In this document: piece after piece, positions 21,738 through 40,300 of the stretch
How the letters are laid out: every line of letters starts with the position of its first letter
Position numbering within the stretch: the stretch's first letter is position 1
Assembly (NCBI RefSeq): GCF_000494755.1
Contig: NC_022657.1
Location: forward strand, 879,501 to 943,500
Reading direction: 5' to 3'
Length of the DNA stretch: 64,000 nucleotides
From: Amorphoplanes friuliensis DSM 7358
Lineage (GTDB): Bacteria; Actinomycetota; Actinomycetes; Mycobacteriales; Micromonosporaceae
Made by a program: the position numbers and the translations under genes
The notes under the pieces: model-generated
Told to the model about the DNA's origin: nothing
Seen by the model: only the letters and a program-made list of their open reading frames with translations
The model's database searches: none

Positions 21738-22073
21738 TCAGGCAATCTTGCTGATCACGTCCTTGGCGACGATCAGCCCGTCGCGCACGGTGTAGACGTC
21801 GACACCCCGCAACGTGCTGCCGTCCTCGGCCACGGGATACGAGAAGTAGCCGAAGCCCCGCTCGCCCCGCACAGCGATCGGTTCGATCACCAGGTCAGGG
21901 TCACCCCCGAGCTGATCGGCGAACACTGCGGCCACGGCGACCCGCCCCCGTACGGTCGAGCCGTCGGAGCCACAGAGCACGACATCCTCGGCGAGGCAGT
22001 CGGTCACACCCGCCAGATCCTGGCCGTTCCAAGCGGTGAGGAAACGGTCAAGAAGTGCAGCAGTGTCCGACAT
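21738..22073 (-). CDS. SnoaL-like / NTF2-fold protein
   Basis: 111 residues with the NTF2-like cone fold pattern: a first helix A-A-L-L-D-R-F-L-T-A-W-N-G-Q-D, D-C-L-A-E-D-V-V, then curved strands ending in G-V-D-V-Y-T-V-R-D-G. Members are polyketide cyclases, ketosteroid isomerases, or proteins that only bind ligands. No catalytic assignment is possible. The ATG at 22073 lies 7 nt from TAGGGT (22081-22086, minus strand), so a leaderless transcript is likely. Confidence 0.82.
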   Translation of the reverse strand: MSDTAALLDRFLTAWNGQDLAGVTDCLAEDVVLCGSDGSTVRGRVAVAAVFADQLGGDPDLVIEPIAVRGERGFGYFSYPVAEDGSTLRGVDVYTVRDGLIVAKDVISKIA

Positions 22074-22188
22074 GGCTGAGACCCTAACGACCCAGTCCCC
22101 TCCCAAGCGACCCCATTTCCAACCCGTGGCGCCCCACTCCCGCCCCCACCGCCAGGCCCGGCCTGGGATCTGGTGCTGTTCGGCTTGG

Positions 22189-22587
22189 CTACTTTGCGCC
22201 GCCGGTGAAGCGGGCTTCGTCGGGGCGGTTGGCGCGGAAGCGGAGGGCTGACCAGTGGTCGTCGATGGCGACCTGGCCGTTCGGGCGCATGTTGAAGTCG
22301 GCGACGATGGGCCAGAGGGTGTCGCGGTTGATGTCCGCCTTGTTGCCCTTGGGGTAGGCGACCCAGAGCACGGCCGGTTTGGCGAGGTCTTCGGTGTGCT
22401 GCTCGAGCAGTTTGCGCGCGCTCGCCGCGTCGTCAGCGAAGAGGATCGCCGTGCTTGCCGTAGCGAGGCCTTCGCTCTCGCGCACTCCCTCAGGCATGGG
22501 CGTGAGCAGCGGCAAGTGCTCCGGGTGTGACAACCAGACCGTGGTGTTCGGCTTGATCTGGAGCTTCTCGGCGATCGTCTTTGACAT
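22189..22587 (-). CDS. DUF3052-family protein
   Basis: 132 residues. It matches the DUF3052 pattern: I-A-E-K-L-Q-I-K-P-N-T-T-V-W-L-S near the start, a small Rossmann-like core and W-V-A-Y-P-K-G-N-K-A-D-I-N-R-D followed by W-S-A-L-R-F-R. The family is of unknown function and is common in actinobacteria. The ATG at 22587 has a purine-rich GGGGG site just upstream. It is divergent from recQ with about 115 bp between starts. Confidence 0.82.
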   Translation of the reverse strand: MSKTIAEKLQIKPNTTVWLSHPEHLPLLTPMPEGVRESEGLATASTAILFADDAASARKLLEQHTEDLAKPAVLWVAYPKGNKADINRDTLWPIVADFNMRPNGQVAIDDHWSALRFRANRPDEARFTGGAK

Positions 22588-22636
22588 GCCCCCAACGCTG
22601 CCACCGACAAGAAAAGTTGTCAAGGATTCTTCCTCC

Positions 22637-22666
22637 GCCTGTGGATAACCCGAGCCTGTGGATAAC
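22637..22666 (+). promoter_or_regulatory. Two direct-repeat DnaA boxes upstream of recQ
   Basis: The 13-mer GCCTGTGGATAAC occurs twice (22637-22649 and 22654-22666) with a 17-bp period. Each holds TGTGGATAA, the exact reverse complement of the DnaA box TTATCCACA. Both face the same way and lie 40-65 bp before the recQ-like start, where DnaA binding could control the promoter or the divergent DUF3052 promoter. Confidence 0.6.
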
Positions 22667-22702
22667 TCCGGTCTTGTCGGTCCCGGCTGGTAGACATGCT
22701 GC

Positions 22703-24868
22703 GTGGTGGAAATGACGCGGGACAAGGTGAGCGAAGCCGAGCGGCTGGCGGTGCGCGAGTGCGCCGAGGAAGTGCTGCGCCGGCTCGCCGGTGAGCATGC
22801 GGTGCTGCGGGAGGACCAGTGGCGGGCGATCGAGGCGCTCGTGGTCGATCGGCGGCGGGTGCTCTGCGTGCAGCGCACCGGCTGGGGCAAGTCGGCGGTC
22901 TACTTCGTCGCCACGGCACTGCTGCGGGACGGCATCACCGCCGAGCCAGGCGACCCGCCGGCCGGGCCGACCGTCATCGTGTCGCCGCTGCTGGCCCTCA
23001 TGCGTAACCAGGTGGAGGCCGCCGCCCGCGCCGGCATCCGGGCCCGCACGATCAACTCGGCGAACCTCGACGAGTGGGGCGAGATCACCGCCGAGATCCG
23101 TAACGGTGAGGTCGACGTTCTGCTGATCAGCCCCGAGCGGCTCAACAACCCGGACTTCCGCGACAACGTGCTGCCCGGTCTCGCCGCGAGCACCGGCCTG
23201 TTGGTGGTCGACGAGGCGCACTGCGTCTCCGACTGGGGTCACGACTTCCGGCCGGACTATCGGCGGCTGCGCACGTTCCTGGCCGGGCTGCCCGGCCTCA
23301 CGCCGGTGCTGGCGACCACCGCCACGGCCAACTCTCGCGTCACCGCCGACGTCGCCGAGCAGCTGGGTGACGCACTTGTCCTGCGGGGCACGCTCGAGCG
23401 CGATTCGCTGCGTCTTGCGGTTCTTGACCTTCCGAATCCCGCACACCGGCTGGGCTGGCTCGCCGATCACCTCGACCGGCTGACGGGCTCCGGCATCATC
23501 TACACACTGACCGTTGCCGCGGCGACCGAGACCGCGGAGTTCCTGCGGTCACGGGGCTTCCCGGTCGCGTCTTACACCGGCCAGGTCGAGGACTCCGACC
23601 GCCGAGCTGCCGAGCAGGACCTCCTGGACAACAAGATCAAGGCGCTGGTCGCCACGTCGGCGCTGGGCATGGGCTTCGACAAACCCGACCTCGGCTTTGT
23701 GGTGCACCTCGGTGCGCCGCCGTCACCGATCGCCTACTACCAGCAGGTCGGCCGGGCAGGCCGGGCCGTCGAGCACGCCGAGGTGGTGCTGCTGCCCGGC
23801 GCCGAGGACGTCGCGATCTGGCGCTACTTCGCATCGCTGGCGTTCCCACCGGAGGAGCAGGTGCGCTCGGTTCTGGCCGCCCTGTCACCCGACCGACCGC
23901 TGTCCACCCAGGCGCTCGAGCCCATCGTGGACCTGCGCCGCGCCCGCCTCGAGCTGATGCTGAAAGTCCTCGACGTGGACGGCGCCGTCCGCCGCACCCG
24001 CGGCGGCTGGACGGTCACCGGCGAGCCCTGGACCTACGACACCGCCAGGCTCCGCCGCGTCGCCGAGGCCCGCACGACCGAGCAGCAAACCATGATCGAG
24101 TACGCGAGAACGACCAGTTGCCGCATGGAGTTCCTCCGCCGCTGCCTCGACGACCCGGAGGCCAAAGCCTGCGGCCGCTGCGACAACTGTGCCGATCCTC
24201 TCTTCGACGCAGAGGTCTCACCGGAGGCACTGACGGCAGCTCAGGCGTTCCTGGGTCACGCCGGCGTGGACATCTCCCCGAAAAAGCTCTGGCCCACCGG
24301 CCTTGCCGCAGCCGGCGTCTCCGTCAAAGGCAAGATCGGCCCGTCAGAGCAGATCCTCCCCGGTCGCGCTGTAGGCCGCCTGTCCGACCTCGGCTGGGGC
24401 GGTCGCCTCCGCGCACTGGTTGCGCCTGACGCCCCCGACGCCGAACTCCCGGACGACCTGGCCGCCGCAGTCGTCGAAGTTCTCAAGGCCTGGTCCCACG
24501 GTGACAACAGCTGGGACCAACGCCCCGCCGCAGTGGTCTCGGTCGCCTCAAATCGCCACCCGCGCCTGGTGGCCAGCATCGCCGACCGCATCGCCAAGGT
24601 CGGCCGCCTCCCCATGCTGGGCACCCTCACCTCCACCCACCAGGGCGACGATGGGCCGCGCGGCAACAGCGCCCAGCGGGTCTTGGCACTGCACGACGCC
24701 TTCTCGGTGCCCCCGGAGGTCGCCGAGTCCCTCAAGGACCTGACAGGCCCGGTCCTGCTCGTCGACGACCTCGCCGACTCCGGCTGGACGATGGTCCTGG
24801 CCGGCCGAGCCCTCCGCAAAGCCGGCGCCCCGGCCGTCCTACCGTTCGCCCTGGCCGTCGCAGGCTGA
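22703..24868 (+). CDS. RecQ-family DNA helicase fused to a phosphoribosyltransferase-like domain
   Basis: 721 residues. Superfamily 2 helicase core: Walker A T-G-W-G-K-S (Lys63), D-E-A-H (Asp170-His173), T-A-T-A-N motif III, S-A-L-G-M-G-F-D and Q-x-x-G-R-A-G-R motif VI. A RecQ zinc-binding cluster follows from Cys473 (C-x7-C ... C-G-R-C-D-N-C). The last ~160 residues resemble a type I phosphoribosyltransferase, with V-D-D-L-A-D-S-G-W-T (from Val687) matching the PRPP loop. The helicase should unwind recombination or replication intermediates 3'-5'; the PRTase part may bind a nucleotide. GTG 22703 and GTG 22706 are both possible starts. Confidence 0.9.
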   Translation: MVEMTRDKVSEAERLAVRECAEEVLRRLAGEHAVLREDQWRAIEALVVDRRRVLCVQRTGWGKSAVYFVATALLRDGITAEPGDPPAGPTVIVSPLLALMRNQVEAAARAGIRARTINSANLDEWGEITAEIRNGEVDVLLISPERLNNPDFRDNVLPGLAASTGLLVVDEAHCVSDWGHDFRPDYRRLRTFLAGLPGLTPVLATTATANSRVTADVAEQLGDALVLRGTLERDSLRLAVLDLPNPAHRLGWLADHLDRLTGSGIIYTLTVAAATETAEFLRSRGFPVASYTGQVEDSDRRAAEQDLLDNKIKALVATSALGMGFDKPDLGFVVHLGAPPSPIAYYQQVGRAGRAVEHAEVVLLPGAEDVAIWRYFASLAFPPEEQVRSVLAALSPDRPLSTQALEPIVDLRRARLELMLKVLDVDGAVRRTRGGWTVTGEPWTYDTARLRRVAEARTTEQQTMIEYARTTSCRMEFLRRCLDDPEAKACGRCDNCADPLFDAEVSPEALTAAQAFLGHAGVDISPKKLWPTGLAAAGVSVKGKIGPSEQILPGRAVGRLSDLGWGGRLRALVAPDAPDAELPDDLAAAVVEVLKAWSHGDNSWDQRPAAVVSVASNRHPRLVASIADRIAKVGRLPMLGTLTSTHQGDDGPRGNSAQRVLALHDAFSVPPEVAESLKDLTGPVLLVDDLADSGWTMVLAGRALRKAGAPAVLPFALAVAG

Positions 24869-24908
24869 TCCCTTCGACGGAAACAAAACACCGGCGCAGG
24901 CTGATAGC

Positions 24909-25270
24909 GCGACGCAATCCGGTGGGGCGACGCGAGCTGGCGGCGCGCCGCAGGCTGGCGGCGCGACGCAACGTGGCAGCGTGACGCAACCTGGTGGGGC
25001 GACGCGAGTTGGCGGGCGACCCGGGTTGGCAGGCGACGCGAGCTGGCAGGCGACCCGGGTTGGCAGGCGACCCGGGTTGGCAGGCGACGCGAGCTGGCGG
25101 GCGACCCGGGTTGGCAGGCGACCCGGGTTGGCAGGCGACGCGAGCTGGCGGGCGACCCGGGTTGGCAGGCGACGCGAGCTGGCAGGCGACCCGGGTTGGC
25201 AGGCGACCCGGGCTGGCAGGCGACGCGAGCTGGCAGGCGACCCGGGCTGGCAGGCGACCCGAGCTGGCAG
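24909..25270. repeat. GC-rich minisatellite: 5 units of 18-bp period, then 16 units of 17-bp period
   Basis: Fills most of the 443-bp gene-free gap 24869-25311 between convergent genes. From 24999 to 25270 there are 16 uninterrupted 17-bp units of two main types, A (gcgacgcgagctggcag) and B (gcgacccgggttggcag), in mixed A/B order with several ABB triplets. Five more diverged units at 24909-24998 have 18-bp spacing. A 17-bp period shifts frame at each unit, so the open frames crossing it are not genes. The rest of the gap (24869-24908 and 25271-25311) shows nothing recognisable. Confidence 0.9.
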
Positions 25271-25311
25271 CGCCGCGTTACCTGGCGGCCAGTTGGCCGG
25301 CAGGGCATGGG

Positions 25312-26283
25312 TTAGCCGGGGCGGCCGAAGCCGTGGATGGGTTGCGTGTCGATACTGGAGACGCGCACGTTTTCGCCGTACTCCGGCGCGTGGATCATGT
25401 TGCCGCCTCCGATGTAGACGCCGACGTGGCTGATAGGGCCGTAGAAGAACACCAGGTCACCAGGGCGAAGGTCGGATCGGCTGATGTGGGCCATCGAGCC
25501 GTACTGGCGTGCAGCGTTGTGCGGTAAGCCGACGCCGGCGGTGTTCCAGGCGGCGAGGGTCAAGCCCGAGCAGTCGTAGGAGTTCGGGCCGGCCGCACCC
25601 CAGCGGTAAGGCTTGCCCAGCTGGGCGAACGCGAACGCCACCACTCGTCCGGCGCGGCCGGGGATGAAGTCGGGCATGGGGACGTCCGAGCTGACCCCGT
25701 ATCGGGAGCCGCCGCCGTAGGCGATCGCGCGCATCTGCTTGAGCGCGCCGATCTCGCCCTCGACCGTCGCCTTGCGGGCGCGGAGCTGGAACTGCTGGCG
25801 GCGCTGCTGGGCGGCCAACGCGTTCAGCATTTTGCGGGTTTGGACGACCTTCGAGCGGGCCGCCCGGAGTTCGGCGACCGCGCGTTGTTCGGAGGTGGCG
25901 AGCTGGTGCAGCACCAGCAACTTGTCGACGAACAGCTGCGGCTGGTCGGCCGCGAAGAGCGCAACAGTCGGGCCGTTGCGGGTGCGCTGGTACGTGCGGG
26001 ACGCGAGGTCGGCCATGACTTCCTGCTGCTGGTTCAGTTCGCGGGTCATCGGGCCGAGCCGGCCACCGAGATGCTTCGTCTGCATTCGGGTCGCGTTCAG
26101 GTCTTCGCGGGAGTTGTTGTACTGCTCGACCAGGACCTCCAGCTGCCGCGACGCTGCCGTGATGCGTTTGTCGAGTTCGGCGGCGGTGGGGCGGTCGGCG
26201 CCGGCAGCGGGTGCAGGGGAGAGGCCCAGGAGCAGCAGTACCGGCACCAGGGCGACAATGATCTTTCGGGGGGTGAGCGGCAC
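25312..26283 (-). CDS. Secreted NlpC/P60 peptidoglycan endopeptidase with coiled coil
   Basis: 323 residues. Signal peptide (about 1-29, A-P-A-A-G-A), a long coiled coil (about 35-190), then an NlpC/P60 domain with catalytic Cys in Y-D-C-S-G-L-T, His in S-H-V-G-V-Y and a third polar residue in the N-M-I-H-A-P region. It resembles mycobacterial RipA-type and other actinobacterial D,L-endopeptidases that cut peptidoglycan stems during cell separation. GTG start at 26283. It is divergent from csoR. The final G-F-G-R-P-G is complete, so the gene is intact next to the minisatellite. Confidence 0.92.
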   Translation of the reverse strand: MPLTPRKIIVALVPVLLLLGLSPAPAAGADRPTAAELDKRITAASRQLEVLVEQYNNSREDLNATRMQTKHLGGRLGPMTRELNQQQEVMADLASRTYQRTRNGPTVALFAADQPQLFVDKLLVLHQLATSEQRAVAELRAARSKVVQTRKMLNALAAQQRRQQFQLRARKATVEGEIGALKQMRAIAYGGGSRYGVSSDVPMPDFIPGRAGRVVAFAFAQLGKPYRWGAAGPNSYDCSGLTLAAWNTAGVGLPHNAARQYGSMAHISRSDLRPGDLVFFYGPISHVGVYIGGGNMIHAPEYGENVRVSSIDTQPIHGFGRPG

Positions 26284-26321
26284 ATCGCCTCTAACGAGAC
26301 AAATGGTGTAAAAGCGACGGC

Positions 26322-26341
26322 ATACGGGTGGGGGGTATGCT
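26322..26341 (+). promoter_or_regulatory. Putative CsoR operator overlapping a leaderless -10
   Basis: ATACGGGTGGGGGGTAT (26322-26338) has ATAC/GTAT ends around a G-rich core, like known CsoR sites (ATAC or TACC ends with C/G runs), though the left half is degenerate. Its right end merges with TATGCT (26336-26341), which lies 7 nt before the csoR ATG. Apo-CsoR bound here would block the promoter, giving autorepression released by Cu(I). Confidence 0.55.
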
Positions 26342-26348
26342 GTCTGGC

Positions 26349-26651
26349 ATGACCACCGACCACGAACACTCCGGGCCGCACGGCTATTCGGGGGACAAGG
26401 CCGCTCTGCTCGGGCGCCTGCGCCGCATCGAGGGCCAGATCCGCGGCCTGCAGCGGATGGTCGACGAGGACACGTACTGCATCGATGTTCTCACGCAGAT
26501 CTCCGCCGCGAAGAGTGCGTTGCAGGCTGTGGCCGTGGGCCTGCTCGAGGACCATCTGGCCCACTGCGTTGTCGACGCCGCCCGCGCCGGTGACCCGACC
26601 GCCAAGGTCAAAGAAGCTTCAGACGCGATCGCCCGCCTCGTCCGCTCCTAA
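26349..26651 (+). CDS. csoR: CsoR-family copper-sensing repressor
   Basis: 100 residues, all-helical CsoR/RcnR (DUF156) protein. The Cu(I) ligand set Cys44, His69, Cys73 is intact (D-T-Y-C-I-D-V and D-H-L-A-H-C), and the R-R-I-E-G-Q-I-R-G-L helix is typical. The His-rich start may add metal affinity. ATG 26349 is 7 nt after TATGCT; an in-frame ATG at 26337 lies inside the operator and is less likely. The copZ-like gene follows after 14 bp, so the regulator controls its own copper-handling operon. Confidence 0.93.
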   Translation: MTTDHEHSGPHGYSGDKAALLGRLRRIEGQIRGLQRMVDEDTYCIDVLTQISAAKSALQAVAVGLLEDHLAHCVVDAARAGDPTAKVKEASDAIARLVRS

Positions 26652-26665
26652 CCAAAGGGACAGTA

Positions 26666-26878
26666 ATGCCAGTCACCTCCACCTACACCGTCAGCGGCAT
26701 GACCTGCAGCCACTGCGTTCAGGCCGTCACCAGCGAGATCTCCGGGCTGCCCGGCGTCGACGCCGTTCAGGTTGACCTCGCCACCGGTGCCGTCACCGTG
26801 ACCAGTGAGGCTCTCCTCGCCGAGGATGCCGTGCGCGCCGCGGTCGACGAGGCCGGCTACGAGCTCGCCGATGCCTGA
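26666..26878 (+). CDS. copZ: CopZ-like copper chaperone (HMA domain)
   Basis: A 70-residue single heavy-metal-associated domain with the Cu(I) site G-M-T-C-S-H-C (Cys14, Cys17) and the ferredoxin-like V-D-L-A-T-G-A-V-T-V strand. It shuttles Cu(I) in the cytoplasm, normally to a CopA-type ATPase or to CsoR. Sits between csoR and a membrane protein gene whose ATG lies within its last codons. No P1B-type ATPase gene is in the window. Confidence 0.92.
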   Translation: MPVTSTYTVSGMTCSHCVQAVTSEISGLPGVDAVQVDLATGAVTVTSEALLAEDAVRAAVDEAGYELADA

Positions 26879-27860
26879 CACGCTCGAGCAGGCGCCGGCC
26901 GAGCCGAAGTCGGATCGGGCGAGTTTCCGGCTCGCGGCGTTCGGTGCGGTGGTCGTGCTGGTCCTCTTCGCGGGCTACGGCATCGGTCGTCTCAACAATT
27001 CCGTCGAGCAGGCGCAGGCCGCGCCGGTGCCGGTGCCGGCCGCCGACGGGCACGGCGCCCACAGTGCGGTCAGTGCCGCGCCGCACGACGACACCGGGAC
27101 GGCGCCGCACCAGCACAACGCCGACGGCACGGTTTCCCAAGGCGCTCTGAATGCGGACAGTGTCGGCGGGCTGGCGGTCACCGCGGCCGGTCTGACGCTC
27201 ACGCCCGAGGCGACCACGTTCAAGGCCGGGGAGCGGCAGGCGTTCAAGTTCAAGATCGCCGGTCCCGGTGGTGCGCCGATCACCACGTACGCCGTGGTGC
27301 ACGACAAGCCGTTGCACTTCGTGGTGGTGCGCCGCGATCTCACCGGCTTCCAGCACCTGCATCCGACGATGGCGCCCGACGGCACCTGGAGCATCGACCT
27401 GGCGCTGGCGGCGCCCGGCAGCTACCGCGCGATCACCGACTTCACCGCGGTGGTCGGCGGCCAGCAGACGCCGGTCACGCTCGGTGTCGACCTCACCGTC
27501 ACCGGCAACTACGTCCCGGTCGCGCTCCCCGCTCCTGTCACCGAGGCGACCGCCGACGGCTTCAAGATTTCGTACGCCGGTACGCCCAAGACAGGCGCAA
27601 CCCAGCCGCTGCTGATGTCAGTGCAGGGGCCGGACGGCAAACCGGCCACGCTGGAGCCGTACTTGGCAGCGTTCGGGCACCTGGTGGTGCTCCGCGAGGG
27701 TGACGTCGGTTACGTCCACGTGCACCCGGAGCCGCAGCTCGTCGACGGTGCCGTCAAGTTCTGGCTGGCCGCGCCGGGACCGGGCCGCTACCGGATGTTC
27801 TTCGATTTCCAGGTCGCGGGCCAGGTCCACACGGCCGCCTTCACCACAGTCGTCAAATAA
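26871..27860 (+). CDS. Membrane-anchored His-rich protein of copper operon
   Basis: 329 residues. One membrane helix near the N-terminus (about 22-42) leaves the rest outside. It is followed by a His-rich linker (D-G-H-G-A-H-S, P-H-D-D, P-H-Q-H-N) and two Ig-like beta domains, each with His clusters (F-Q-H-L-H-P and F-G-H-L-V ... V-H-V-H-P-E-P) that could bind copper. Resembles uncharacterised actinobacterial proteins found with CsoR/CopZ and copper ATPases. The ATG overlaps copZ by 8 bp. Likely role is extracytoplasmic copper binding; this is inference from context and His placement. Confidence 0.78.
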   Translation: MPDTLEQAPAEPKSDRASFRLAAFGAVVVLVLFAGYGIGRLNNSVEQAQAAPVPVPAADGHGAHSAVSAAPHDDTGTAPHQHNADGTVSQGALNADSVGGLAVTAAGLTLTPEATTFKAGERQAFKFKIAGPGGAPITTYAVVHDKPLHFVVVRRDLTGFQHLHPTMAPDGTWSIDLALAAPGSYRAITDFTAVVGGQQTPVTLGVDLTVTGNYVPVALPAPVTEATADGFKISYAGTPKTGATQPLLMSVQGPDGKPATLEPYLAAFGHLVVLREGDVGYVHVHPEPQLVDGAVKFWLAAPGPGRYRMFFDFQVAGQVHTAAFTTVVK

Positions 27861-27862
27861 GG

Positions 27863-28999
27863 TCAGCTGAGCAACTTCTCCAACGCCGGGGTGACACCCC
27901 ACTGAGCGGTCAGCGCGTCGTATTCGGCGCGCTGACCCTCGTCCGGCGCCGCACCGGTCAGCCGTGCGCGCAGCAGCAGGTTGCGCGGCGTGTGCGCGGA
28001 GTCCACGAACTCCACCACCTCGACCTTGTAACCCCGCAGACGCAGGAGCGCCGATCGCAGCGAGTCGGTGAGGACGTCCGCGAAGCGCTCCCGCAGGATC
28101 GCATTCCGGGTGATCTCCGCGTACGGGGAAGGGGCGGTGTTGCCCTTGAGCTGCGCGGCGATGTCGTGGTGGCAGCACGGGGCTGCCAGCACCCACTTTG
28201 CGTTCCAGTTGACGGCCCGGGCGAGTGCCTGGTCGGTTGCCGTGTCGCAGGCGTGCAGGGCCAGCACCAGGTCGGGCGCTTCGTCGACGACGGCGTCCTC
28301 GATCGTGCCCGCGACAAACGTCACCGCCTCGGCGCAGCCCAATTGCTCGGCGACGGCGGAATTGCGGACGCGCTGGTCCTCGCGGACGTCGACTCCCACG
28401 ACCCGGACCGTCACGCCGCGGTCGGCTAGGTAGCGGTAGGCCGCGAAGGTCAGATACGCGTTTCCGCAGCCCAGGTCGACGACGCGCAGGGTCTGCGGCA
28501 GTTCGTCGGGCAGTGTTGCGGCCAGCGCGCGCAGGAAGGCGTCGACCTGCCGCCGCTTGGCTGCCGTGCCACCGACCACCGTGAACAGCGGGTCGCCCGG
28601 GTCCAGCAGCCACTGCTTGGCCCGATCGTGACTTTGTGTCACCGTTGGCCCGGCGGTCGCCGCCCGGTGGATCTGCGCGTCACCCTTCTTGGTCACCCGC
28701 ACCTGTACGGTCTCAGCCGCCGTCTCCACGTGCCAGTTCCCGAACGGTTCCGCCAGCAGGGCATCCACGGCCTCGGCCGCCTCGGCACCGGGCGCGACGT
28801 TCCGGGTGTACGGCCGGGAGCCGTCATCGGTCACGATCTGCAACCGCGGTCCGCCTTTGAGGGCGACCGGCCGCAACTCCGCGCGGGTGACCGAAGGAGT
28901 GAAACCGCGACGCTTACCCGCGGCGACCGCCCGCGTGAGAGCGGGGTCGAGCAGCAGGTCACGCACTTCGGCGAGGACGGCGTCCAGTGGTTGGGGCAT
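27863..28999 (-). CDS. SAM-dependent methyltransferase (Methyltransf_32-like)
   Basis: 378 residues. A ~140-residue N-terminal region is followed by a Rossmann methyltransferase: V-V-D-L-G-C-G-N-A-Y-L-T, G-V-D-V-R-E after strand 2 and L-A-L-H-A-C-D-T-A-T-D at strand 4, then the striking A-P-C-C-H-H-D motif. That pattern recalls the Methyltransf_32 group (eukaryotic GSTCD and METTL25 domains). Substrate unknown. The ATG at 28999 is 6 nt from CAGAAT (29006-29011, minus strand). It ends 2 bp from the convergent His-rich protein gene. Confidence 0.82.
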   Translation of the reverse strand: MPQPLDAVLAEVRDLLLDPALTRAVAAGKRRGFTPSVTRAELRPVALKGGPRLQIVTDDGSRPYTRNVAPGAEAAEAVDALLAEPFGNWHVETAAETVQVRVTKKGDAQIHRAATAGPTVTQSHDRAKQWLLDPGDPLFTVVGGTAAKRRQVDAFLRALAATLPDELPQTLRVVDLGCGNAYLTFAAYRYLADRGVTVRVVGVDVREDQRVRNSAVAEQLGCAEAVTFVAGTIEDAVVDEAPDLVLALHACDTATDQALARAVNWNAKWVLAAPCCHHDIAAQLKGNTAPSPYAEITRNAILRERFADVLTDSLRSALLRLRGYKVEVVEFVDSAHTPRNLLLRARLTGAAPDEGQRAEYDALTAQWGVTPALEKLLS

Positions 29000-37357: not shown

Positions 37358-40300
37358 ATGGCAAAAGCGACAAAAGGTTCCGCAGCTCCTCGGGCCGCCG
37401 CTGAGGACCTGCCCACCCGGGACCAGACGACGGCGACCGTCCGGCGCAACCCGCCACCCTCCGCGGGCAAACCGCCAGTCTCCGCACGCCGTAAGTCGGC
37501 CTCCGCGCCTGACCCGGCGGTTACCGCGCTCAACCCGGCGGCCTCTGCTTTCGGCCAGGCGGCGTCCGTCCTTGATCCGGCGGCCCCCGTGCTGGGCCCG
37601 GCGGCGTCCGTCCTTGATCCGGCGGCCTCTGCGCTCGGCCCGGCGGGCTCCGCGCGCAAGGCGGTAGCTGCGGGGCGCAACGCCCGTCGGCCGAGTGCCA
37701 CCGCAGCCGGCCGTGCCCAGAATGCATCCCCACTCAACCCCACGGGGACACCCGCCATGCCCGAATCACCTGACACCGCCGCACCCACGTCTGCTGCCTC
37801 GCCCGCGTCCACCGCCTTGCTTGCGTCAGGTGCTGCCGAGGCGAGTCCTGCTGCCCGCACGCGCCGGACCGCCGCCGCGGCAGGTGCCGAGCCGACGCCC
37901 ATCCGGCGCCGGAAGCCGGCCGCCGTCAAGGCCGCCGCAGCGCCCGCTGCCGAAGCTCCGAGTCCTGACGCTCTGGTTACCGAGGCCGCCAAGGCAGCGA
38001 CAAAGGTCGCAGGCCGGCCCCGCTCGCCGAAGGAACCGGAATCGCCGAAGCCGATCAGCGCGGCCCGGCCGGGCGCGAAGTCGGCCGGCCTGGCGTCCAA
38101 CCCCGAAACGTCCGGCGTGGCCGAGGTTTCGGGACCAGCCCTGCCCGCCGCGAAGCCAGCACGCCAGGCCAGGCCTGCGGCCGCGAAATCTGCCGATCCG
38201 GTCGTGCTCGCGACCGCGAAGTCATCCGACCCAGCGAGGTCTGCGGTCGCGAAGTCCGCTGGCCCGGCCAGGTCTGCGACCGCGAAGTCGGCTGGTTCGG
38301 CCAGGTCTGCGGCGACGAAGTCGGCTGGTCCGACGGGCTCGGCCGCGGTGTCTGACGTTGCGAAGTCGGCTGCAGCTTCGGGGATGACGTCGATCGGCTC
38401 GGTGAGGGCTGCTCGTGTGACCCGGTCGAGTCTGCCCGCCGAATCAACCGGGACCGGCGCGGGGACCCCCGCACGGGCGGTTGCGGCCAGGTCTACGCCG
38501 AACAAGTCCGCCGTGACTGAGCGAACGACGCCACCGGCGAAGTCGGCCCGGGCCGGTGCAGGGCCTGCCAAGTCAGCCGCCTCGGCTGGGCGGGCAGCCA
38601 CCAAAGCTGCTGCGACCAAGAGCACGGGGTCGAGCAGGTCGGCGACTGCGGGAGCTACCGCCGGCAGGACGACGGCTGGCTCGGCGGCATCGTCGGCGGC
38701 GGCGAAGGCTGCCCCCGTGAAGACCGCTGCCGGAACGCGGGCGCCTGCAAAGTCGGCTGCTGCCTCGGCTACCGGTGCGAAGCCGACGGCGGCGAAAGCC
38801 GCGACCACGAAGGTGGCAGGGACAACGGCCGCTCCCGGCAAAGCTGCCGCAGCGAAGGCTGTATCGGCCAAGACCCCGGCCACCAAGGCCACACCTGCCA
38901 AGACCGCGACGGCCAGGACCGCGACCACAAAGACTGCGACGGCAAAGGGCACGACGGTAAGGGCCGCGACGGCAAAGGCCGCGCCTGCGAAGACGGCCGC
39001 GACGAAAACCGCCACGACCGGAACCGCCACGACCGGAACCGCCACGACCGGAACCGCCACGACCGGAACCGCCACGACCGGAACCGCCACGACCGGAACC
39101 GCCGGGACCAAAACCGCCGGGACCAAAACCGCCGTCACCAAGGCGGCACCGACGAAGGCTGCGGCGGCAAAGGCAGCATCCGCAAAGACCACTGCGACGA
39201 AGGCAGCACCCGCGAAGGCAGCGCCCGCAAAGACCACAGCGGCCAAGGCAACCAGCGCTTCACCATCCAACGCTGCGCCTTCCAAAGCCGCGGCGGCGCA
39301 CTCTGCTCCCGCCAAAGCTGCGGCGACAAACGCTGCTCCCGCCAAAGCTGCGGCGACAAACGCTGGTCCTGCCAAAGCTGCGGCGACGAACGGTGGTTCT
39401 GCCAGGGCCGCGGCTACAAATGCCGCTCCTGCCAACGCGGCAACGACGAACGTCGGTTCTGCCAAGGCCGCCCCGGCGAACGCCGCGCCTTCCGACGCTG
39501 CGACGACAAACGCTGGTCTGGGCAAGGCGACCGTGACTAACGCCGCGTCTGCCAACGCGGCGGAGACAAACGTTGGTTCTGCCAAGGGCACCGCGACGAA
39601 TGCCGCTCCCACCAACGCGGCGGGGACGAACGTTGGGTCTGCCAAGCCCGCGGCGACGAATACTGGACCCGCCAAGGCTGCGGCGACGAATCCTGCGCCG
39701 GCCAGGACTGCCCCGACCAAGGCCGGCCCGGCCAAGGGTGCGCCCGACGCGGTTGCGCCGGCCACGGCCGTGTCCGCCGAGGGCGCGGGCTCGAAGGTTG
39801 CTCCGGCGAAGGCGCCGGCCAAGGCTGCACCCAGCAGGTCGGCAGTCGCCAAGCCCGATCAGCCGCCCGCCCCGAAGGCCGCGCGGACCACGGCGACATC
39901 CGCACAGGCCAAGGCGACGACGGCGCAGGGTCCCGCGACGGCGACAAACACCTCCACTGACGCGACACCAACAACATCGGACGATCCTGCAAAGGCAGCA
40001 ACTCCCGCAAAGCCTGCTGCGCCGACGTTCGCAAAAGCCACTTCCCCGAAAGCCGCTGCTGCCCCGACCGGGACCGCTGCGCACGACAGCACGGCAAGTC
40101 AGGCTGCTTCCGGCGGGGAACAGAGCGTCGGAGCCGCCACGCAGGAGCCGGCGGCAAAGCTCGACCCCGCGTTGAACACACCCAACCCCGAGCTCCGGGA
40201 CCCCGACGGAACAGCTCCCGGCGGCGGGCAGGCAACGGTCAAGCCGGAAACCCCGCCGAAGCGACCCCGCCGAACCCCGCCCAAGGACCCGAAACCGACA

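Follow-up and report, generated by a model that had tools for sequence, protein, structure and literature searches.

The closest known system to the array described here is the rnc-fpg1 repeat of Mycobacterium tuberculosis (ETR-F / VNTR3239; PMC2734929), a likeness of layout. According to the parts of that paper considered here, the rnc-fpg1 spacer measures 279-358 bp in M. tuberculosis while other mycobacteria have at most 54 bp there, and its repeats vary among strains and correlate with fpg1 expression. Intergenic satellites have been described more widely in prokaryotes, with several actinobacteria among the species tabulated in the passages at hand (PMC6749651). Planctomycete intergenic tandem repeats have been linked with structural variants (PMC9426551), and heptamer repeats have been described in Xanthomonas and Nostoc (PMC4692102). 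The genome paper of Actinoplanes SE50/110 mentions short repetitive elements in passing, as far as the sections consulted go (PMC3364876). Among the papers listed by searches of an open-access library, we recognised none devoted to recurrent arrays in the convergent spacers of Actinoplanes.

Here we describe such an array in Amorphoplanes friuliensis DSM 7358, within a window that comprises the whole analysed stretch of 64,000 nucleotides. Lying between the 3' ends of two convergent genes, the array runs from 24893 to 25273, consists of about 22 GC-rich units arranged head to tail, and occupies most of the 443-bp gap (Table 1). With a unit of 10-200 nt, at least four head-to-tail copies and a regularity above chance, it qualifies as a bacterial minisatellite or satellite. 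It is not a CRISPR array, a candidate that we rejected, as its units abut and no unique spacers separate the repeats.

Table 1. Features of the array and its surroundings (positions within the window).
Feature	Position	Strand	Basis or remark
RecQ-like DEAD/DEAH helicase gene, 721 aa	22703..24868	+	ORF list; 3' end faces the array
3' end and stop codon of the helicase gene, possible seed (weak)	24857..24874	+	resembles the first 18-mer
Convergent spacer holding the array	24869..25311	.	443 bp
Six diverged 18-bp units, older part	24893..25000	.	Tandem Repeats Finder and unit splitting
Fifteen 17-bp units, types A and B, mainly ABB = 51 bp	25001..25255	.	
Closing 18-bp unit, A/B hybrid, GACCCGAGCTGGCAGCGC	25256..25273	.	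matrix score 16.2; background maximum 15.5
Possible extra decayed 18-mer, in register (weak)	25274..25291	.	empirical tail 0.0068 there
NlpC/P60 family gene (323 aa), pointing towards the helicase gene	25312..26283	-	Pfam NLPC_P60, 3.8e-25

Three periods overlap in the array. According to Tandem Repeats Finder, 24907-25020 repeats every 18 bp (6.4 copies, score 102), 24998-25270 every 17 bp (16.1 copies, score 364) and 24926-25270 every 51 bp (score 416). The top score over 1000 dinucleotide shuffles of the spacer was 87 against the 416 observed, and chance can therefore be ruled out. Unit boundaries were set by splitting at the GAC core, which yields steps of 18 bp over 24893-25000 and of 17 bp over 25001-25255. 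The 17-mers fall into a type A, GACGCGAG[C/T]TGGC[A/G]GGC, and a type B, GACCCGGG[T/C]TGGCAGGC, which differ mainly by GCGAG/CCGGG, and they follow one another as A B A B B A B B A B A B B' A B' before a hybrid unit closes the series. This mainly ABB order accounts for the 51-bp period, and self-identity within 24998-25270 accordingly climbs from 86% at lag 17 through 90% at lag 34 to 94% at lag 51. When scored with a matrix built from the left-hand units, the closing unit outscores all 1,259,694 background windows sampled elsewhere in the genome (one strand). The 18-mer thus returns at the right edge, which shows that the 17-bp form expanded within an older 18-bp array and was not joined to its end. 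An earlier sequence-only reading had proposed a minisatellite that switches from an 18-bp to a 17-bp period, and both Tandem Repeats Finder and unit splitting bear this out. Its count of five diverged 18-bp units has to be raised to six, the first beginning at 24893; of its 16 clean 17-bp units fifteen are indeed 17-mers and the sixteenth (25256-25273) is an 18-mer; and the two types that it saw are real, their order being mainly A-B-B instead of the alternation it described.

As an array, the unit is found only at this locus, as the search of the genome that the same reading had called for now establishes. The array region as DNA matches itself alone in its own genome; a degenerate pattern of the unit has 20 exact matches there, 17 of them inside the array; and the B unit at up to two mismatches has 14, of which 10 belong to the array and the other 4 occur singly at scattered places. 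Plasmid records gave no match to the array. A REP or BIME was considered and set aside on dispersal, the unit being confined to one locus; as to stem-loops, hairpins are predicted on the + strand and the - strand folds no better than shuffled sequence.

The array adjoins a helicase gene, as the earlier reading had it: the RecQ-like gene at 22703-24868 (+), whose 3' end faces the repeats. Pfam finds DEAD (2e-20), Helicase_C (4.8e-17) and RecQ_Zn_bind (1.2e-5) in its product, and the C-terminal region bears a weak phosphoribosyltransferase similarity (Pribosyltran, 9.6e-4, below the Pfam cut-off). A codon-usage caller starts the gene at 22712 rather than at the 22703 of the ORF list. The best named matches come from Paractinoplanes and Actinoplanes, with 79-83% identity over the best segment; Micromonospora is close behind at 78-80%. 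The gene end may itself have provided the first unit. The window 24855-24872 is identical to the first 18-mer at 15 of 18 positions and stands in register two 18-bp steps upstream; windows with at least 14 of 18 are expected 0.0014 times in 60 bp, for a likeness that was sought after the fact, and a local-alignment test gives only p = 0.055. Such seeding does not amount to a general rule, an idea that we tried and rejected since few spacers are significant: 47 of 67 spacers behind recQ were long enough to test, and against shuffles p is 0.01 or lower in 5 of these and 0.05 or lower in 9, whereas with the tails of other species as control 3 spacers reach 0.05. Among the candidates one (G009) is striking and three (G047, G065, G025) are plausible by eye. 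In G009 (L157), a 35-bp array 3' of recQ includes the final 48 bases of the helicase gene in diverged form, and this suggests that seeding by a gene end can occur.

The helicase is present in all 67 genomes of the genus in our comparison set, the present one included. The DNA behind recQ was extracted from every one of them and analysed by program, and 34 of the sequences were also read directly. A recQ tree built from 30 of these genomes places G050 as the sister of our species (support 99/95; helicase 85% identical over 221 aa), and there NlpC follows recQ after 41-54 bp with no array between them. In the other genomes the called gap behind recQ ranges from nothing to about 1 kb; in G043 and G065, where the stretches are short, no called gene closes the spacer. 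A single threshold was applied to spacers of at least 150 bp (score 70, 1.9 copies, 45 bp). Repeats are present in 19 of the 24 convergent spacers (3 of 240 shuffles), or in 17 and 16 of the 24 at stricter cuts of 2.5 and 3 copies, against 4 of 17 co-directional spacers at each cut (1 of 170 shuffles). The corresponding Fisher tests give 0.001, 0.004 and 0.011 with increasing stringency, and leaving out our own genome (18 of 23 convergent) again gives 0.001. Both spacers without a called next gene carry repeats too (shuffles 1 of 20).

These arrays share a place and mostly little else. Their periods include 16, 17, 18, 24, 46, 51 and 65 bp, and their units are mostly unrelated: pairwise comparison of 20 arrays (30 shuffles per pair, one strand) gave z above 5 in 2 of 190 pairs, one of the two being the sister pair G012/G055, and the best partner of our own array reaches z 1.2. 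Within that sister pair recQ is nearly identical and both arrays advance by 18 bp, yet they differ in length and in unit sequence. Repeats behind recQ thus seem to arise and to be replaced quickly. A search of the genus with our array returned matches in 30 of 60 genomes, its own included, that is in 29 of 59 others, and all of these were weak. From 19 matching loci that were fetched, 17 overlap a tandem repeat with a different unit, three of these lying within called genes and one having just two copies; the remaining 2 lie in called genes without a repeat. A homologous array elsewhere in the genus was therefore rejected, the weak matches falling mostly on repeats with other units. The sequence-only reading had further proposed a local and recent expansion, which is supported by the nesting, the 94% identity at lag 51, the absence from G050, the confinement to one locus and the position between convergent genes.

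Beyond recQ the effect of gene orientation is uneven, and this counts against a neutral reading of the array in so far as such a reading leans on a general excess in convergent spacers. We scanned 1.324 Mb (14%) of our own genome for arrays of at least 2.5 copies in spacers of at least 150 bp. The yield was 17 of 50 for convergent spacers, 17 of 142 for co-directional ones and 3 of 113 for divergent ones, compared with one array in total from three shuffles per spacer. The convergent excess is strong (17/50 against 20/255 in the rest, p 5e-6), but by our reading of the consensus units 9 of the 17 convergent arrays belong to a separate hairpin family, and without that family and without the window the counts become 7/49 against 16/254 (p 0.07). 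Under the same copy-number cut, the excess is present in G069 of the same family (6/18 against 11/94, p 0.03) and not significant in G050 (4/17 against 13/87, p 0.47) or in 64 Streptomyces-type loci (4/46 against 13/235, p 0.49). Convergent enrichment as a universal rule was rejected on these counts; the orientation effect is firm only for our own genome with the hairpin family included, and for the recQ spacer.

Two further loci were picked because our own genome has arrays at both. They lie behind genes judged from their sequences to be lexA-like and aroA-like, and 30 loci were tested for each, drawn from 67 and 32 genomes with a match. At the 1.9-copy cut used for all three surveyed genes, arrays occupy 14 of 16 spacers of at least 150 bp behind the lexA-like gene and 13 of 16 behind the aroA-like gene, our own genome included in both. 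As many as 17 of these 32 long spacers end without a called gene and so have no assigned orientation, and the spacers of known orientation reveal no orientation effect. Behind the lexA-like gene (L329-L358, 30 genomes of the genus), 10 of 30 loci have no called gene over the entire 1497 bp. The arrays there are species-specific, as in G018 (L344), with a 17-bp unit, 8.2 copies and 100% matches; in G050 the corresponding gap is 18 bp. The most economical interpretation is that repeats are free to grow where a spacer holds no promoter. Genes in these surveys come from a home-made codon-usage caller that missed some of them: in several co-directional spacers csoR, located by tblastn, precedes the first called gene, and a number of the arrays assigned to long "co-directional spacers" are probably repetitive genes that the caller passed over.

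Our own genome also harbours other repeats. The dispersed hairpin family, GCCCRACTTC-NNN-GAAGTYGGGC, has 159 exact sites in this genome, with none in 66 other genomes of the genus, in viral contigs or in the window; examples are L257 9137-9327, L226 1896-2148 and G000:C1 1622228-1622979. Within the 1.324 Mb it numbers 131 sites at up to two mismatches, distributed over 19 loci of which 13 are convergent spacers, and 62 of 112 successive distances measure 40-42 bp, about four helical turns. This family is REP-like and closer to REPs than the array is. Four partial matches of the Y1-transposase type were seen in the same genome. Inside the window, 37497-39746 is dense with tandem repeats whose periods (mostly 15, 21, 30, 33, 42, 45, 60 and 90 bp) are multiples of 3, apart from a few overlapping Tandem Repeats Finder consensus words that are one base longer or shorter; it is probably a repetitive coding region missed by the codon-usage caller. 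Several adjacent arrays with different units (39 bp; 18 bp with 97% matches; 15/30/45 bp) fill about 2 kb at L199 17163-19180 (G000:C1 near 2.018 Mb).

Several alternatives to a non-coding repeat have to be weighed. GC-rich tandem repeats collapse easily, so that the period switch or the copy number might be an artefact of assembly or basecalling. The genome (9.38 Mb) is, however, a single contig with completeness 100 and contamination 0.5; a uniform indel error would not produce 17-mers with distributed variants, a three-unit pattern and an 18-mer returning at the right edge; and comparable arrays occupy the same place in other genomes of the genus. We regard an artefact as highly improbable. 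Less credible still is a protein-coding repeat of 17 residues per 51 bp, although the array is crossed by long open reading frames on both strands, 24981-25433 (+), 24994-25527 (+) and 24256-25308 (-). The codon-usage caller, again home-made, calls no gene in the array; neither 24994-25527 (+) nor 24256-25308 (-), the two frames scanned, has a Pfam match at 0.001; the array is absent from the nearest relative, and the units of other species are mostly unrelated; and GC-rich units without stop triplets yield open frames on their own. The first reading had deduced the non-coding nature from the 17-bp step, which rotates the frame. Its conclusion holds, but the argument is unsound, given that three units (51 bp) restore the frame.

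A function in transcription is a more serious contender, albeit an unlikely one. Hairpins formed by neighbouring B units could terminate or shield the helicase mRNA and curb antisense transcription, as the array stands exactly between two converging 3' ends and repeats behind recQ are commoner in convergent than in co-directional spacers. RNA of the spacer on the + (recQ) strand does fold better than shuffles (z -2.99, with 12-bp hairpins), and a structural role is conceivable on that account, but RNA of the - strand does not (z 1.13). For 23 arrays located behind recQ, with coordinates chosen by hand and three of them in co-directional spacers, z on the recQ strand is overdispersed around a mean of -1.0 (-6.2 to +3.1): 7 of 23 fall below -2, in favour of a terminator or insulator, but 3 of 23 exceed 2.5; on the other strand 3 of 23 fall below -2. 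With no consistent sign on either strand, a conserved RNA function was rejected. Rfam has no match at gathering score in 22000-28000, and a scan of 24800-25400 for intrinsic terminators, defined as a GC hairpin with a T run and hence not covering U-less ones, gave no site. The gap is array-free in the nearest relative, G050, which thus manages without the array, and a function of the array appears unlikely on this sequence comparison.

We therefore consider it very probable that the array is a non-coding minisatellite specific to this locus, which slippage or unequal exchange enlarged in a convergent spacer under weak constraint. An 18-bp array would have arisen first in the 3'-to-3' spacer of the two genes, its seed perhaps, though this is tentative, a duplicate of the last codons of the helicase gene. 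One unit would then have dropped a single base from its tail, as a comparison of GGCGGCGC-type tails with GGCGGGC suggests, giving the 17-mer. Replication slippage or unequal exchange, which we infer to be the motor, could have multiplied the 17-mer form, and later the three-unit ABB block, within the array, leaving diverged 18-mers on both flanks. Promoters and ribosome binding sites are presumably absent from such a spacer, which would then tolerate growth and loss and let related species grow different arrays in the same gap; the growth was probably neutral. A bolder extension, which we hold only as a doubtful speculation, is that 3'-to-3' spacers of conserved genes in Actinoplanes and its kin are recurrent birthplaces of minisatellites, formed anew in each species and partly from the 3' end of the gene, and that the arrays as a class, and not their sequence, buffer converging transcription.

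The array is ordinary in kind; it stands out for the uncommon clarity with which its internal history can be read and for what the comparison with related species can teach. It offers a clean case of nested repeat growth, in which an 18-mer array, the putative loss of one base, the spread of the 17-mer and the spread of ABB can be told apart, and the genus supplies a series in which the birth and loss of bacterial minisatellites can be followed at one fixed place. Such sites might serve for strain typing. If transcript ends are influenced by the arrays as a class, related species with and without an array can be compared at the recQ spacer.

Compared with the systems introduced above, the locus resembles the rnc-fpg1 repeats in that direct repeats restricted to a lineage occupy the gap next to a gene for DNA repair; the rnc-fpg1 repeats, however, begin behind rnc and extend as far as the fpg1 start, and so lie upstream of fpg1, whereas recQ and the NlpC gene converge (PMC2734929). 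Judged by unit length and copy number, it agrees with prokaryotic satellites (10-200 nt, at least four copies), but the passages at hand do not treat gene orientation or recurrent birth at one orthologous spacer (PMC6749651). REP and other palindromic repeats, which in the account available occur mostly between convergent and unidirectional ORFs, share this preference of place with the array, but they are palindromic and dispersed in many copies while its unit is confined to one locus (PMC3733652).
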